From positions 1 to 64,000 of the forward strand of contig JAHCHO010000013.1 of assembly GCA_026129685.1 (NCBI GenBank): a stretch of 64,000 nucleotides of DNA. The letters are read 5' to 3'. This document shows, in pieces, positions 8,378 to 13,850 of this stretch; position 1 is the first letter of the stretch; each line of letters begins with the position of its first letter. A program made the translations under genes and the position numbers. The DNA comes from Fimbriimonadaceae bacterium. GTDB lineage: Bacteria > Armatimonadota > Fimbriimonadia > Fimbriimonadales > Fimbriimonadaceae. The notes under the pieces are model-generated. The model searched no databases, was not told the DNA's origin, and was given only the letters and a program-made list of their open reading frames with translations.

Positions 8378-9484
8378 ATGGCAATCCGAATCACCGAGTG
8401 CTTCGTCCGATCCGACCTCTCCGTCATGGCGAGCGTCGTGATGTCCCTCCTTCTCGACCACCACATCAAGAAGCCCGACGAACCGATGGAGGTGTCCGAC
8501 CTCGTGAGCGCGGTGCAGAAGCCCCGCGAGGCGATCCTCCATGCCCTGACCGAACTGAGCGAGTGCAAGATGCTCGCCGACCTCGGCGACCCCGAGACGC
8601 TCGACTCGTTCACCGTGGACGCGCTGACTATTTCGGTCTGCCGCCAACAGGACGCTTTGCCGTTCGACGCCCCGACCCCAAGCCCTAAACCGCGAGGCGA
8701 GACCGGCATCGAACACGACTTTGTGTTCGGCGTCGAACACCGCGCCGAGATCGCCTACGACGATGAGGGCTACGTCTTGGAGGTGTTTCGTCTGGAGGAC
8801 GACGACGAGCCTCGGGTCTTTGTGGACACGTATGCCAACAGCGACGACGCCTGGGAGGCCTGGGACGACTTTCGGGGGGCGTTCACGAAACGAACCGTCT
8901 ACAACGTCGATGGCGCACCTTACGTGTTGCGTCGCGACACCGACCCCTGGACGATACGGAACTCCGACGACGAAACGGTGTTCGTCGCGACCTCCGAGGC
9001 CGAGACTGGTCGGTGGGAGGAGGTCAAGGCGTGGTACGAAGCCCAGACCGCCGTCAGGCCCGTTCGCTCCATCGGAGTCTGGTTGCGAGAGCTGGCCGAC
9101 GCCGCCAAGCGTCGCCTCGACGACGGCCCCTACGAGGGCTTCGCCGTCGTCGTGGTATCGGAGGACGCGGTGAACGAACTCCGAGAGGAGTACCTCCTTC
9201 GCGAACACGACGAGTATCTTATCTGCGAGGAGGAGGCGGTCGCGATTCGCGCGGAGGACGGCGGGCTGGAGTGGCCGGGGGCGTTCGACCGCAATCTCCT
9301 GGTGCGCCGCGCCAAGGCTTTCGCCCAAAGCACCGGTTCCGTCTCCCTCTCCAAACTCCATCGTCGATTCGACCTGGACGACGCGACCGCCGAATGGGTG
9401 ATCGGGCAGCTGATCGCCGAGAACGTGGTCGGTTTCTTCGCCGACGGCGACCCCGACAAGACCTGCGAGGCGATCGAGGTCTAG
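8378..9484 (+). CDS. Phage protein with C-terminal FtsK-gamma-like domain
   Basis: This 368-aa protein starts at ATG 8378 with TAAGG upstream. The N-terminal 80 residues look like a helical/winged-helix region (MASVVMSLLLDHHI, VSDLVSAVQKPREAILHAL). The middle is acidic and beta-rich with no family recognised. The last 65 residues (AFDRNLLVRRAKAFAQ, VSLSKLHRRFDLDDATAEWV, IGQLIAENVVG) resemble the FtsK gamma winged-helix domain, which reads short oriented DNA motifs. The protein could bind phage DNA or connect to dimer-resolution sites. Its role is unknown. Confidence 0.75.
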   Translation: MAIRITECFVRSDLSVMASVVMSLLLDHHIKKPDEPMEVSDLVSAVQKPREAILHALTELSECKMLADLGDPETLDSFTVDALTISVCRQQDALPFDAPTPSPKPRGETGIEHDFVFGVEHRAEIAYDDEGYVLEVFRLEDDDEPRVFVDTYANSDDAWEAWDDFRGAFTKRTVYNVDGAPYVLRRDTDPWTIRNSDDETVFVATSEAETGRWEEVKAWYEAQTAVRPVRSIGVWLRELADAAKRRLDDGPYEGFAVVVVSEDAVNELREEYLLREHDEYLICEEEAVAIRAEDGGLEWPGAFDRNLLVRRAKAFAQSTGSVSLSKLHRRFDLDDATAEWVIGQLIAENVVGFFADGDPDKTCEAIEV

Positions 9485-9486
9485 AG

Positions 9487-10071
9487 GTGCGAAAGGTCCT
9501 GGTATTCGACCTGGAGACAGGCGGGCTGGATCCGCGAACGTGCGGCATCACCCAGATGTCGGCGGGCGCGTTCGGCTACGACGACGAGTGGAACCTGGCC
9601 GAGACCCTCGGCCAGGTGAGCCTCCTCGTCAAACCGGTTCCCGGATTCGAGTACCAGGACCAGGCCCTTCAGATTCAGCGCGTCGAACTCGAACGGCTGA
9701 AGGCGGAAGGCGCGAACATCGGCGTCGCGGTGAACAGGGTTCGCGATTTGGTGGTGCGGGAGTTCGGCGCGGAAAAGCGGTGCGCCCCCGTCGCTCACAA
9801 CGCGAGTTTCGACCGTGGGTTTCTCGACGCGCAGTTGGAGCGTTGGCGAATCGAGCCTCCGTTCAATCGTTGCTGGAGATGCACGATGGACCTTTTCCGA
9901 TGGATGCAGGACCTCGGCAAGCACGAACGCTACCGGGCCAACCTCGATACCATCGCCGAACACTACGGCTTGTCGTTGCCCGAGGAAGAGCGCCATACGG
10001 CTGGCGGCGACGTGCGCCTGACCGCGATGGCTTTGTCCGCGATGATGCGCGATCTGCGAGGCGTCGCGTGA
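9487..10071 (+). CDS. DEDDh 3'-5' exonuclease (DnaQ-like)
   Basis: This 194-aa protein starts at GTG 9487, 2 nt after the previous stop. Exo I motif is FDLETGG (about residues 7-13), Exo II is VAHNASFDRGFLDAQ (about 102-116), and Exo III is HTAGGDVRLT (about 171-180), giving the D-E-D-D plus His set. This matches the DnaQ/ExoX fold that degrades or proofreads DNA from the 3' end. In a phage early operon it may serve replication fidelity or degradation of single strands. Confidence 0.9.
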   Translation: MRKVLVFDLETGGLDPRTCGITQMSAGAFGYDDEWNLAETLGQVSLLVKPVPGFEYQDQALQIQRVELERLKAEGANIGVAVNRVRDLVVREFGAEKRCAPVAHNASFDRGFLDAQLERWRIEPPFNRCWRCTMDLFRWMQDLGKHERYRANLDTIAEHYGLSLPEEERHTAGGDVRLTAMALSAMMRDLRGVA

Positions 10072-10268
10072 AACTCTCTTACACCCTGACCAACGCCGCC
10101 GAGCTTCTCGACGTGTCCCGTCGAACGCTCGAACGGTTGATCCGCGAGGGTCGAATCAGAGCGCACACCCTGACCGTTCACGGTGACCGTCATGTTTCTC
10201 ACGCGGAACTGGAACGGTACGTCGCATTGCGCGAAAACGCGGTTCTGGAGCGGGAGGCGAGCCGATGA
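10068..10268 (+). CDS. Small MerR/excisionase-type HTH protein
   Basis: This 66-aa protein begins at GTG 10068, which overlaps the exonuclease TGA (GTGA). The helix-turn-helix is clear: YTLTNAAELLDVSRRTLER, then LIREGRIRAHTL and HVSHAELERYV, the helix_turn_helix type 17 pattern. It is the second such small regulator in the phage, the other being just upstream of int. It may regulate the rightward operon or act on DNA architecture. Confidence 0.8.
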   Translation: MKLSYTLTNAAELLDVSRRTLERLIREGRIRAHTLTVHGDRHVSHAELERYVALRENAVLEREASR

Positions 10269-11227: not shown

Positions 11228-12225
11228 GTGTGGCTCTACGTTCCGTCGAATTGTGCGCCGGGTACTCAGGACTCGGAATGGGACTCGGACTCCTTGGCAT
11301 CGAGGTTGTCCCAATGTGTTGTGTGGAGATCGAAGCCGTCGCCGCCGCAGGTCTGGTCCAAAAGATGCAAGAAGGCGTCTTGGCTGAGGCTCCTGTCTGG
11401 TCTGACGTTCACACCTTCCCGAGCGAACTCTTTAGCGGAAGAGTGGATATCGTCCTCGGCGGTTATTCTTGCCAACCGTTCTCTCACTGCGGAAAGCGAG
11501 CCGGAGAGGACGATCCTAGGCACCTTTGGCCCAGTATCGTTCGAATCCTTGGCGAGCTCCGACCTCGTTTCGCCTTCTTCGAGAACGTGGAAGGGCACCT
11601 CACGCTCGGATTCGAGAATGTCGTCGCGGACTTGGAGCGACTGGGTTACACGGTTGCGGCGGGCATATGGAGCGCGGCTGAAGTGGGCGCGAACCATGGT
11701 CGCAAGCGACTGTTCATCCTCGGCGAACTGGCCGACGCCCACCACGAGGGACCACAAGGACGGGACTTCGGCGGGAACGGTAGAGGAGAACGGACTGTTG
11801 GGCAGAGCGGCCCCGAACTGGCCGACGCCCATGGGGCAGGACCTGCGTCCGCATCACGACCCCAAGAGCAGGTTGGAGAACGTGGTCGCTCAATGGCCGA
11901 TGCCGAGAACTTGTTCCGCGATGGGGGCGACGATAAACCCAGACGCGACGTTCCCGAACTTGGAAACGGTGGTCGCCCGCTTTTCCCTCCCGGTCCCTCA
12001 GACTTCGACGCCTGGGAACGAGTTCTCGAAGCCAGACCAGACCTCGCCCCGGCGGTTGAACGAACTGTTCGTGGAGTGGCTGATGGGACTGCCCGAAGGG
12101 TGGGTGACCGGACGGACCACCTGCGACTCTTGGGCAACGGCGTTGTCCCGATGGTCGTCGGACTCGCGTTCGCGACTCTCTACGCTTCTCTCCTATCGGA
12201 AAGACGACGCGCAGGGGGCGCTTGA
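11215..12225 (+). CDS. dcm: DNA (cytosine-5) methyltransferase
   Basis: This phage C5-cytosine methyltransferase of up to 336 aa starts at GTG 11215 or, better spaced from the upstream stop, GTG 11230. Motif I is ELCAGYSGLGMGL (about residues 12-24), motif IV with catalytic Cys is GGYSCQPFS (about 82-90), motif VI is FFENVEG, motif VIII is HGRKRLFILG (about 161-170), and motifs IX-X end in LRLLGNGVVPMVVGLAF (about 303-319). The target-recognition stretch between VIII and IX carries three ADA repeats and stays open in the +1 frame as well (see findings). Likely role: modification of phage DNA against host restriction. Confidence 0.93.
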   Translation: MDGIGVALRSVELCAGYSGLGMGLGLLGIEVVPMCCVEIEAVAAAGLVQKMQEGVLAEAPVWSDVHTFPSELFSGRVDIVLGGYSCQPFSHCGKRAGEDDPRHLWPSIVRILGELRPRFAFFENVEGHLTLGFENVVADLERLGYTVAAGIWSAAEVGANHGRKRLFILGELADAHHEGPQGRDFGGNGRGERTVGQSGPELADAHGAGPASASRPQEQVGERGRSMADAENLFRDGGDDKPRRDVPELGNGGRPLFPPGPSDFDAWERVLEARPDLAPAVERTVRGVADGTARRVGDRTDHLRLLGNGVVPMVVGLAFATLYASLLSERRRAGGA

Positions 12226-12269
12226 ACCTGTGACCGCCCTCCTCACCGTGCCGCAGGTCGCCGAGCGGA

Positions 12270-13850
12270 TTAGCCCTTCGTCTTAGGCGGAGGTCCGATC
12301 TGACCGTGCAACAGCGGCTTGGTCGAAGCCCCCGGCGGTTTGGGGCGCAGGTCCTGTTCCCAAACCGGAGCCCCCGACGGGGCCGGACTCGTCTTGGCCT
12401 TCCGCAGCTGGTCCTCGATGCGTTGACGTTGCTCCCGTCGGACGCGCACCCGCTCGTCCAGTTCGTCCAACCGCTCCTCAAGTGCCGCGATCCGGTCCCG
12501 GTCGGGATTGAGTGCGTCCCGTTCGTCCTCCAGTTGGCGCTCGATGCCCCGCCGAATCGCCCGGTCCTCGTCCGCCGCGTCCTGTAGAGAGTTCGCAAAC
12601 TCCTTCATCGCGTCGAAGCCCGCCGCCTCCCCGCCCGCGAGCTGTTGCCACTTGCGGTAGTCCATCCGCGAGTAGGCGTCCGCGATCTGAGCGTTTCCCA
12701 CCGCCCGCCTCACGTCCACTTCCTGCTGATCGATGGTGAACCGGAGGTCCTGCCCTCGCCGCGTTACCCCGAGTTTCTCGCGCTCAAGCTTGTACGTCTC
12801 GGCCCAGTGCCGTTGCTTCGCCGCCAGGTCGGCCGCCGAGAGCTTGAGTCGCTGCTCGCGGTACGCTTCGTCCGGCGTCTCCTTGCTCACCGCTTCGCGG
12901 AGAGCGTCTCCGTACTCCTGGCTCAGGACTCCTTGCGACACCAGCACTTCGAGGTACGCCGCTCGGGCGTCTTTGCCCTCCACCTTGAAGAGGTCCGAGA
13001 GCGCTTTCGTGACCAGTTCTCGTCGCTCCTTCTTCTCCTCGGCGACGAGCTTGCGAACCTTGTCGAGCGCCTCGACCCGGTGTTCCTGCGCCCCTAGCTT
13101 GCGCTTCCACTCCTCGACCGCCCGCGAGTCGCTCCGGTCGATCTGGCCGACGATGTACTGGTATTCCAGTTGCGCCCGCTTCGCGTTCGCCTCCCGCGTC
13201 TCCGCTTGGAACTTCGCGTCCTCGTCGAGCGACTTCTGGTGCTTTTCCAGGGGCTCGGTCACGAATCGCGCCCAATCCTTGTTGCCCGACAGCAACGCGC
13301 CGATGGCCGAACCGATCACCCGGTTGCGCTTGCCGGGGTCCATGTTGTCGAGGCCCGCCATCTGCCGCCTCACCGGTTCCGGCACCATCCGCTCCAGCAT
13401 CTTGCGGAGCAGTTCGTCGGGTCGCTGTTGGTACTGCGGTCCCTGCTCCGCGAGTTTGGCCAAGTCCTCCTGCGCCGTGCGCAACTCCTGGTAGAACCGC
13501 TTGCTCGTCGCCTCGGGCACGTCCTCGGGTTGCTCCAGGATCCCCCGGGTCGTGTCGGCGAGGGATCGGAACCGCGAGCCGACGGTCATGTACGAAACGT
13601 TCGGGTCGGTGATCCGAGAGGCGTGGGTGATGCCCTTGATCAGCCAGTCCTTCCCGTTGATCGCCGGGACGGGCAACGGCTCGCCGTATTCGAGGTTGAG
13701 CTTGCCCAGCGGCGACAAATCGGGGGCGGCGTCCATCTCCGGGAGCTTGGTCGGAACGAAGCTCGTATCGGTCTTGGGTCTCCGGTCCCCGGTCAGAAAG
13801 TCGTAGACCTTCGCTAGCGGCCCCGGCTTGCGCTCGTCCTCGACGGTCAT
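12270..13850 (-). CDS. Large coiled-coil virion-associated protein
   Basis: This 526-aa protein is the last gene of the structural operon, starting at ATG 13850 with GGAGAG upstream and overlapping the preceding stop. Residues 1-100 are mixed. From about 190 to 480 it is highly charged and helical with long coiled-coil stretches (for example KHQKSLDEDAKFQAETREA and ALEERLDELDERVRVRREQ). The C-terminal 40 residues are Pro-rich. Length, position and composition fit an internal or ejected virion protein of a podovirus-like particle. No family is recognised by motif. Confidence 0.72.
   Translation of the reverse strand: MTVEDERKPGPLAKVYDFLTGDRRPKTDTSFVPTKLPEMDAAPDLSPLGKLNLEYGEPLPVPAINGKDWLIKGITHASRITDPNVSYMTVGSRFRSLADTTRGILEQPEDVPEATSKRFYQELRTAQEDLAKLAEQGPQYQQRPDELLRKMLERMVPEPVRRQMAGLDNMDPGKRNRVIGSAIGALLSGNKDWARFVTEPLEKHQKSLDEDAKFQAETREANAKRAQLEYQYIVGQIDRSDSRAVEEWKRKLGAQEHRVEALDKVRKLVAEEKKERRELVTKALSDLFKVEGKDARAAYLEVLVSQGVLSQEYGDALREAVSKETPDEAYREQRLKLSAADLAAKQRHWAETYKLEREKLGVTRRGQDLRFTIDQQEVDVRRAVGNAQIADAYSRMDYRKWQQLAGGEAAGFDAMKEFANSLQDAADEDRAIRRGIERQLEDERDALNPDRDRIAALEERLDELDERVRVRREQRQRIEDQLRKAKTSPAPSGAPVWEQDLRPKPPGASTKPLLHGQIGPPPKTKG

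Follow-up and report, generated by a model that had tools for sequence, protein, structure and literature searches.

The question raised by this locus is whether one stretch of DNA encodes a single methyltransferase or two proteins that are read from the same bases in different frames. The window (the whole stretch analyzed, 64,000 nucleotides) comes from a 3.9-Mb bacterial assembly of a Fimbriimonadaceae bacterium (GenBank assembly GCA_026129685.1, contig JAHCHO010000013.1) and contains a C5-cytosine methyltransferase gene whose +1 frame is also open. A preliminary description had reported ADA units in the methyltransferase frame, WPTP and WPMP sequences in the +1 frame over the same DNA, and no +1 stop from 11228 to 12286. 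This reading of the sequence held and even understates the case: the description missed that the +1 gene spans the whole methyltransferase gene and has its own start, as well as that the arrangement matches M.EcoHK31I, a described two-polypeptide enzyme. Just upstream of the methyltransferase, at 9013-10268, lie an excisionase-like gene and one for a DNA polymerase exonuclease subunit (PHROG_192, E 1e-28), and the methyltransferase gene is therefore probably in a prophage.

Both open reading frames (ORFs) lie on the plus strand. Alpha, the large subunit of a C5-cytosine methyltransferase, is in frame 0 (11230-12225) and consists of motifs I-VIII, a low-constraint linker and motif X. Beta is the +1 ORF (11228-12286), which covers alpha end to end and carries recognition units and motif IX in its C-terminal half. 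Their start codons overlap in the sequence GTGTG (11228-11232), with the GTG of beta at 11228-11230 and that of alpha at 11230-11232. In alpha, motifs I-VIII (11236-11730) include SCQPF at approximately 11467-11481 and ENV at approximately 11581-11589; they are followed by the linker with the ADA repeats (11755-11967), predicted to be disordered on the basis of AlphaFold pLDDT and composition (77% of residues 167-279 are A, G, R, D, E, Q, S, P or K), and by motif X (GNGVVP, 12133-12150) with a C-terminal helix (together 12133-12216), which are supported by frame-0 constraint in 65 loci and by pLDDT. The N-terminal part of beta (11228-11728) lies over the catalytic domain of alpha and contains conserved MW, WRSKPSP and R residues. 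It is followed by recognition unit 1 (WPTPTTRDHKDG...NGLLGR, 11729-11818), over which frame 0 reads an ADA unit; recognition unit 2 (WPTP, 11819-11893), assigned from its sequence and the +1 placement of WPTP in related loci; recognition unit 3 (WPMP) with a linker to motif IX (11894-12055), assigned from its sequence; and motif IX (LNELFVEWLMGLPEGW, 12056-12103), supported by +1 matches of the motif IX type and by beta-frame constraint in 65 loci. In the window sequence itself, +1 TGG codons are found at 11729 and 11819, QWPMP at 11894 and LNELFVEWLMGLPEGW at 12056-12103, and the +1 frame is free of stops from 11228 to 12286. Frame 0 over the +1 series WPTP/WPTP/WPMP reads LADA/LADA/MADA and is preceded by the catalytic motifs.

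Alpha meets the criteria for a C5-cytosine methyltransferase, having motifs I-VIII with SCQ/PCQ and ENV, and the remaining elements (motifs IX and X and the recognition region) are all present across the two ORFs, X being in alpha and LNxxxVEWLMGxPxGW with the WPTP units in beta. The assignment of VEWLMG as motif IX is likely; it is inferred from position and residues, not from structure. The Pfam family DNA_methylase matches only residues 4-171 of alpha (E 6e-26), whereas PHROG_363 covers its whole length. Beta is matched over residues 75-300 by PHROG_1008 ("DNA methyltransferase", E = 1e-22), including part of the N-terminal half, and has the invariant residues of an alignment of 36 beta sequences. 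PHROG_363 and PHROG_1008 thus correspond to alpha and beta, respectively; both are labelled DNA methyltransferase but are kept as separate families, and their two-frame relation is not noted there.

For comparison, two separate scans of viral contigs, one with the frame-0 protein and one with the +1 peptide, yielded 160 loci. Beta is present in loci that were retrieved with the alpha protein, and alpha in loci retrieved with a beta protein. In approximately 135 non-redundant viral loci, 228 of 229 exact WPTP units lie in the +1 frame relative to the catalytic motifs, with one in frame 0 and none in +2, and all 46 matches to the motif IX pattern are in +1; the frame placement of both is the same whichever query fetched the loci. 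The WPTPTTRDHKDG-type (TRDHKDG) units, of which there are 88 copies (75 unique) in the collected loci, are also found exclusively in +1. The preliminary description had taken the ADA-type and WPTP-type sequences for frame variants of one DNA, which held (88/88 TRDHKDG-type units in +1 of the catalytic frame).

Within the window, the openness of the +1 frame alone is only weak evidence, because the window is GC-rich and has many long spurious ORFs, and the probability of an open +1 frame over the catalytic part is approximately 0.08 after synonymous shuffling. Across loci the result is very different. In the catalytic region of 136 loci, 21 stops were seen in +1 versus 244 expected from synonymous shuffling of frame 0, while the third frame (+2), used as a control, had 712 stops versus 707 expected. 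In the variable region of 115 loci, it is frame 0 that is depleted, with 22 stops versus 412 expected from shuffling of the +1 codons, most of them in only three loci (L058, L068 and L054); the third frame had 849 versus 781 expected. No depletion was observed in 17 ordinary C5-methyltransferases of related genomes (90 stops versus 91.6 expected). Selection therefore holds both frames open in more than 100 loci.

The content of the +1 frame in the window was examined with a profile of the +1 protein built from other loci, with the window left out, against which 600 synonymous recodings of frame 0 were also scored. The +1 frame of the window scores 231 bits, compared to at most 140 for the recodings; the corresponding values are 166 versus at most 130 for the N-terminal part alone and 60 versus at most 21 for the C-terminal part alone. 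The +1 content of the window is thus not due to chance. The preliminary description had named a +1 frame open only through base composition as an outcome that would refute it, which was not borne out by either the shuffling or the recoding tests.

Codon-position rates indicate which frame carries the protein information in each region. Across loci, mismatch rates at frame-0 codon positions 1, 2 and 3 are.169,.111 and.302 in the catalytic region and.271,.121 and.103 in the variable region, and therefore the free position is the third position of frame 0 in the former and the third position of +1 in the latter. Constraint is on frame 0 in motifs I-VIII, passes to +1 from the WPTP region to motif IX and returns to frame 0 at motif X. 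The second of these changes was resolved in 65 loci: beta (LNPxxVEWLMGxPxGW) is constrained as far as its tryptophan, a few codons with both frames constrained follow, and then alpha (RVDRLRxLGNAVVP) is constrained. The statement in the preliminary description that the catalytic motifs stay in one frame on both sides of the variable region also held (I-VIII and X in frame 0). In the TRDHKDG unit, the first and second positions of +1 are near invariant and the third is free, and the frame-0 residues vary. Considering this +1 constraint in the variable region, the "ADA" repeats are an out-of-frame reading of WPTP units, and it is very likely, as far as can be inferred from sequence alone, that the WPTP units are the real target-recognition units and ADA their frame-0 shadow.

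For beta over the catalytic region, mean +1 conservation was not used, since the +2 control also exceeds the shuffles through shared ancestry, and only site-specific +1 conservation peaks were taken as evidence. Four columns have z above 20, i.e., +1 conservation beyond synonymous shuffling; because individual +1 residues are conserved far more than shuffling would give, the N-terminal half of beta is a genuine part of a protein. Conserved MW, WRSKPSP and LxPS elements and an arginine near residue 150 can be recognized in this half, which has no known fold or function.

Most loci of the window's group start with ATGTGG or GTGTGG, i.e., the ATG or GTG of beta followed by TGG, with the GTG of alpha two bases later; in a smaller set, the ATG or GTG of alpha is four bases ahead of the ATG of beta. 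Among 43 non-redundant beta starts, 42 are ATG, GTG or TTG, and a Shine-Dalgarno-like match precedes 30 of the 43, nearly always by 4-9 nt. Neither a conserved slippery heptamer nor a conserved frame-0 stop was found in 68 loci where the constraint changes frame. The overlapping starts together with the lack of a conserved slippery sequence favor two proteins over frameshifting.

In the AlphaFold prediction of the window alpha, the large domain (residues 1-167) is well predicted, with block means mostly 87-97, pLDDT falls below 50 over residues 176-246 (the ADA repeats), and the motif X helix reaches approximately 90-97 over residues 311-330. The model matches M.HhaI with a Z of 20 over approximately 200 of the 327 residues of that enzyme. 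By this prediction, alpha alone forms the entire large domain, with disordered sequence in the place of a recognition domain. A beta protein predicted alone gave a mean pLDDT of 49 and a pTM of 0.23, and only its motif IX end reached 60-81; due to this poor prediction, the fold of the recognition units is not established.

The reading that we prefer is that the two proteins of these overlapping same-strand genes assemble into one C5-methyltransferase, which we consider likely (a probability of approximately 0.82). Frames, constraint, motif distribution, starts and breadth are shown, whereas expression, the complex and the target sites are inferred. In this model, alpha and beta both begin behind one ribosome-binding site (Shine-Dalgarno) at the overlapping codons. 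Frame 0 would give alpha, the catalytic subunit with motifs I-VIII, a disordered linker and motif X, and +1 would give beta, with a long N-terminal part shadowing the catalytic domain, WPTP-type units and motif IX. Beta may then associate with alpha, supply the missing small domain and set the target sequence, and the out-of-frame linker of alpha may bridge the gap to motif X. Against this reading, beta has no meaningful sequence match in the PDB, and searches of PDB, PADLOC and NCBIfam with it gave no useful match. In addition, the conserved N-terminal part of beta over the catalytic domain is not explained by the two-subunit reading, for which there are no expression or biochemical data.

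Natural two-polypeptide C5-methyltransferases are already known, namely M.AquI and M.EcoHK31I (PMC3404938). In M.EcoHK31I (YGGCCR; Lee, Kam and Shaw 1995, cited in PMC3404938), motifs I-VIII and X are on the large polypeptide and motif IX on the small one, and the predicted target-recognition domain (TRD) was placed in the large subunit (PMC3404938). The gene for its small subunit lies inside that for the large subunit in another frame, and both polypeptides are required. Similar to M.EcoHK31I, the window alpha has motifs I-VIII and X and lacks motif IX, which is on a second polypeptide of an overlapping frame (in the window, the evidence is constraint and the product is inferred). On the other hand, the start codons overlap here, and so do the ORFs, from one end to the other; the recognition units, of which a gene has 1-6, belong to the beta frame and not to the large subunit; and the family spans many phages and prophages. 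By analogy, the phage family resembles M.EcoHK31I as far as motif distribution goes; neither homology nor a need for both proteins is established. M.AquI (CYCGRG) is similar in that a C5-methyltransferase is split into catalytic and recognition polypeptides, but in the window and most loci motif X is in alpha (frame 0) and the genes overlap fully. The C5-methyltransferases of SPbeta-group Bacillus phages are multispecific, with several recognition modules between motifs VIII and IX; they are single chains in one frame, whereas the modules here are in a second frame. The open-access literature, to which the search was limited, gave no account of this phage family or of its full-length overlap, overlapping starts, second-frame units or breadth among phages.

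Several other explanations should be considered. Programmed +1 ribosomal frameshifting after motif VIII might produce one chain in which the catalytic domain is followed by the WPTP region and motif IX, and a further shift might return it to frame 0 for motif X. Such a chimeric reading would gather all motifs, and the frame under constraint does switch immediately behind motif VIII and a second time ahead of motif X. However, the junction has no conserved slippery sequence or frame-0 stop in 68 loci, beta is equipped with a start codon and Shine-Dalgarno sequence of its own, and frameshifting would need neither an open +1 frame across the catalytic region (21 versus 244) nor an open frame 0 across the variable region (22 versus 412), making this explanation very unlikely. 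A different role for beta, which would be translated but would not be a methyltransferase subunit (for example, it might inhibit host restriction, the overlap being a chance of origin), draws support from the half of beta over the catalytic domain, which has no known fold or function, and from the absence of direct evidence for an alpha-beta complex. It is nevertheless improbable to a similar degree, considering that motif IX is in beta and missing from alpha, that motifs IX and X move between the two proteins in variants with each present once, and that M.EcoHK31I provides a precedent.

The remaining two alternatives can be almost entirely dismissed. One is that paired compensating frameshift mutations produced two separate families, with one frame used per locus, as the preliminary description had offered beside true dual coding. 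In its favor, the ADA and WPTP types are annotated apart (PHROG_363 and PHROG_1008) and public records give one or the other. This option failed because both readings are present together in almost every locus and neither frame is allowed to close; loci with a freely interrupted frame are uncommon (L058/L068, L054 and a few loci with early +1 stops). True dual coding is supported by the openness of both frames in more than 100 loci and by the codon-position rates. The other alternative is that only frame 0 is translated and that +1 is open and motif-like through GC content, codon usage and the conserved frame-0 protein. It is true that the GC-rich window has numerous spurious long ORFs and that LADA, written in preferred codons, gives WPTP. 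However, synonymous recoding does not reproduce the +1 sequence of the window, the third positions of +1 are the free ones in the variable region, and the pattern holds at 44-50% GC. Base composition alone is ruled out by the shuffling, the recoding and the low-GC loci.

Natural variants provide further information about the division of labor. In L058 (1469-2551), alpha ends soon after motif VIII, frame-0 stops thereafter are as frequent as expected (10 versus 11.5), and recognition units, motif IX and motif X are all in the single frame of beta, a division like that of M.AquI. The same layout was observed in L068, in which frame 0 is no longer kept open. The variants suggest that an open frame 0 across the variable region is retained only in loci that have motif X further along in that frame. 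Actinophage relatives carry motif IX in alpha, the catalytic frame, sometimes together with units: all units are in +1 in some of them (for example, L205-L207), and units are split between the two frames in L190, L192, L191 and L201. Throughout the loci inspected, motifs IX and X occur once each, in one protein or the other, which fits two subunits completing each other. The number of units per beta varies from 1 to 6 (three in the window), and the same recognition unit is found at different positions in different loci; this suggests, by inference, that the units are exchangeable specificity modules.

With regard to breadth, phages and prophages that are only distantly related share the arrangement, which is kept in more than 100 loci at 44-71% GC. 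The overlap was also revealed by a scan of bacterial genomes with one beta protein: it is present in gamma-, alpha- and betaproteobacteria, Brevibacillus, Clostridium, Synergistaceae, Verrucomicrobia and Nocardiopsis. Some of these loci have 43-44% GC, and in several of them beta starts inside alpha and not at its start. Only one of the two ORFs is annotated in the public records inspected. They list beta, as a hypothetical protein, for Synechococcus phage Ssp-JY39 and Xanthomonas phage PhiXhv-7 and a part of it for Komagataeibacter phage phiKX1; for Klebsiella phage KlebP_265, Escherichia phage N15 (gp58) and phage C72C1, they list alpha.

Long same-strand overlapping genes in bacteria and phages have often been doubted as artefacts of GC content; the methyltransferase overlap passes stop-avoidance, codon-position and recoding tests in this broad set of loci. 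What was a curiosity of one or two restriction-modification enzymes becomes a widespread design, which implies that gene catalogues omit one protein of each pair systematically and present the remaining ones as unrelated families. Since one frame is devoted to catalysis and the other to specificity, these genes offer a natural system for studying two proteins that evolve in the same bases. A bolder reading, to which we incline by only a small margin, is that they represent a very large unrecognized family of full-length same-strand overlapping genes in bacterial viruses, in which frame 0 would encode the catalytic subunit and +1 a specificity subunit of modular build, from overlapping start codons. 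Phages would swap recognition units in phase, leaving both frames intact, and motifs IX and X would migrate between frames during evolution.

Some additional observations were made on individual loci. A second C5-methyltransferase in the window's genome (contig C12:241063, L162) looks ordinary, with 4 stops in +1 of its catalytic region and approximately 3.6 expected. A genome of the same bacterial family contains a related overlapping gene (L171; 43% identity to the window alpha over residues 8-220), which has WPTP in +1 and no +1 stop in the catalytic region. Actinophage-type contigs (L190, L191, L192, L201, L222 and L196-L207, and also L163 and L168) have LPTP units in +1 or divided between frames, and their +1 ORF ends just where the frame-0 units or motif IX begin. 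Moreover, three loci (L208 and L210, in both at approximately 900-1400, and L215) have an insertion after the ENV motif whose +1 frame reads like a LAGLIDADG-type homing endonuclease (AGLIDGEGCV...), an identity that was not confirmed by a Pfam scan of short segments of L208 and L215; in L208 and L210, frame 0 is open through this insertion.
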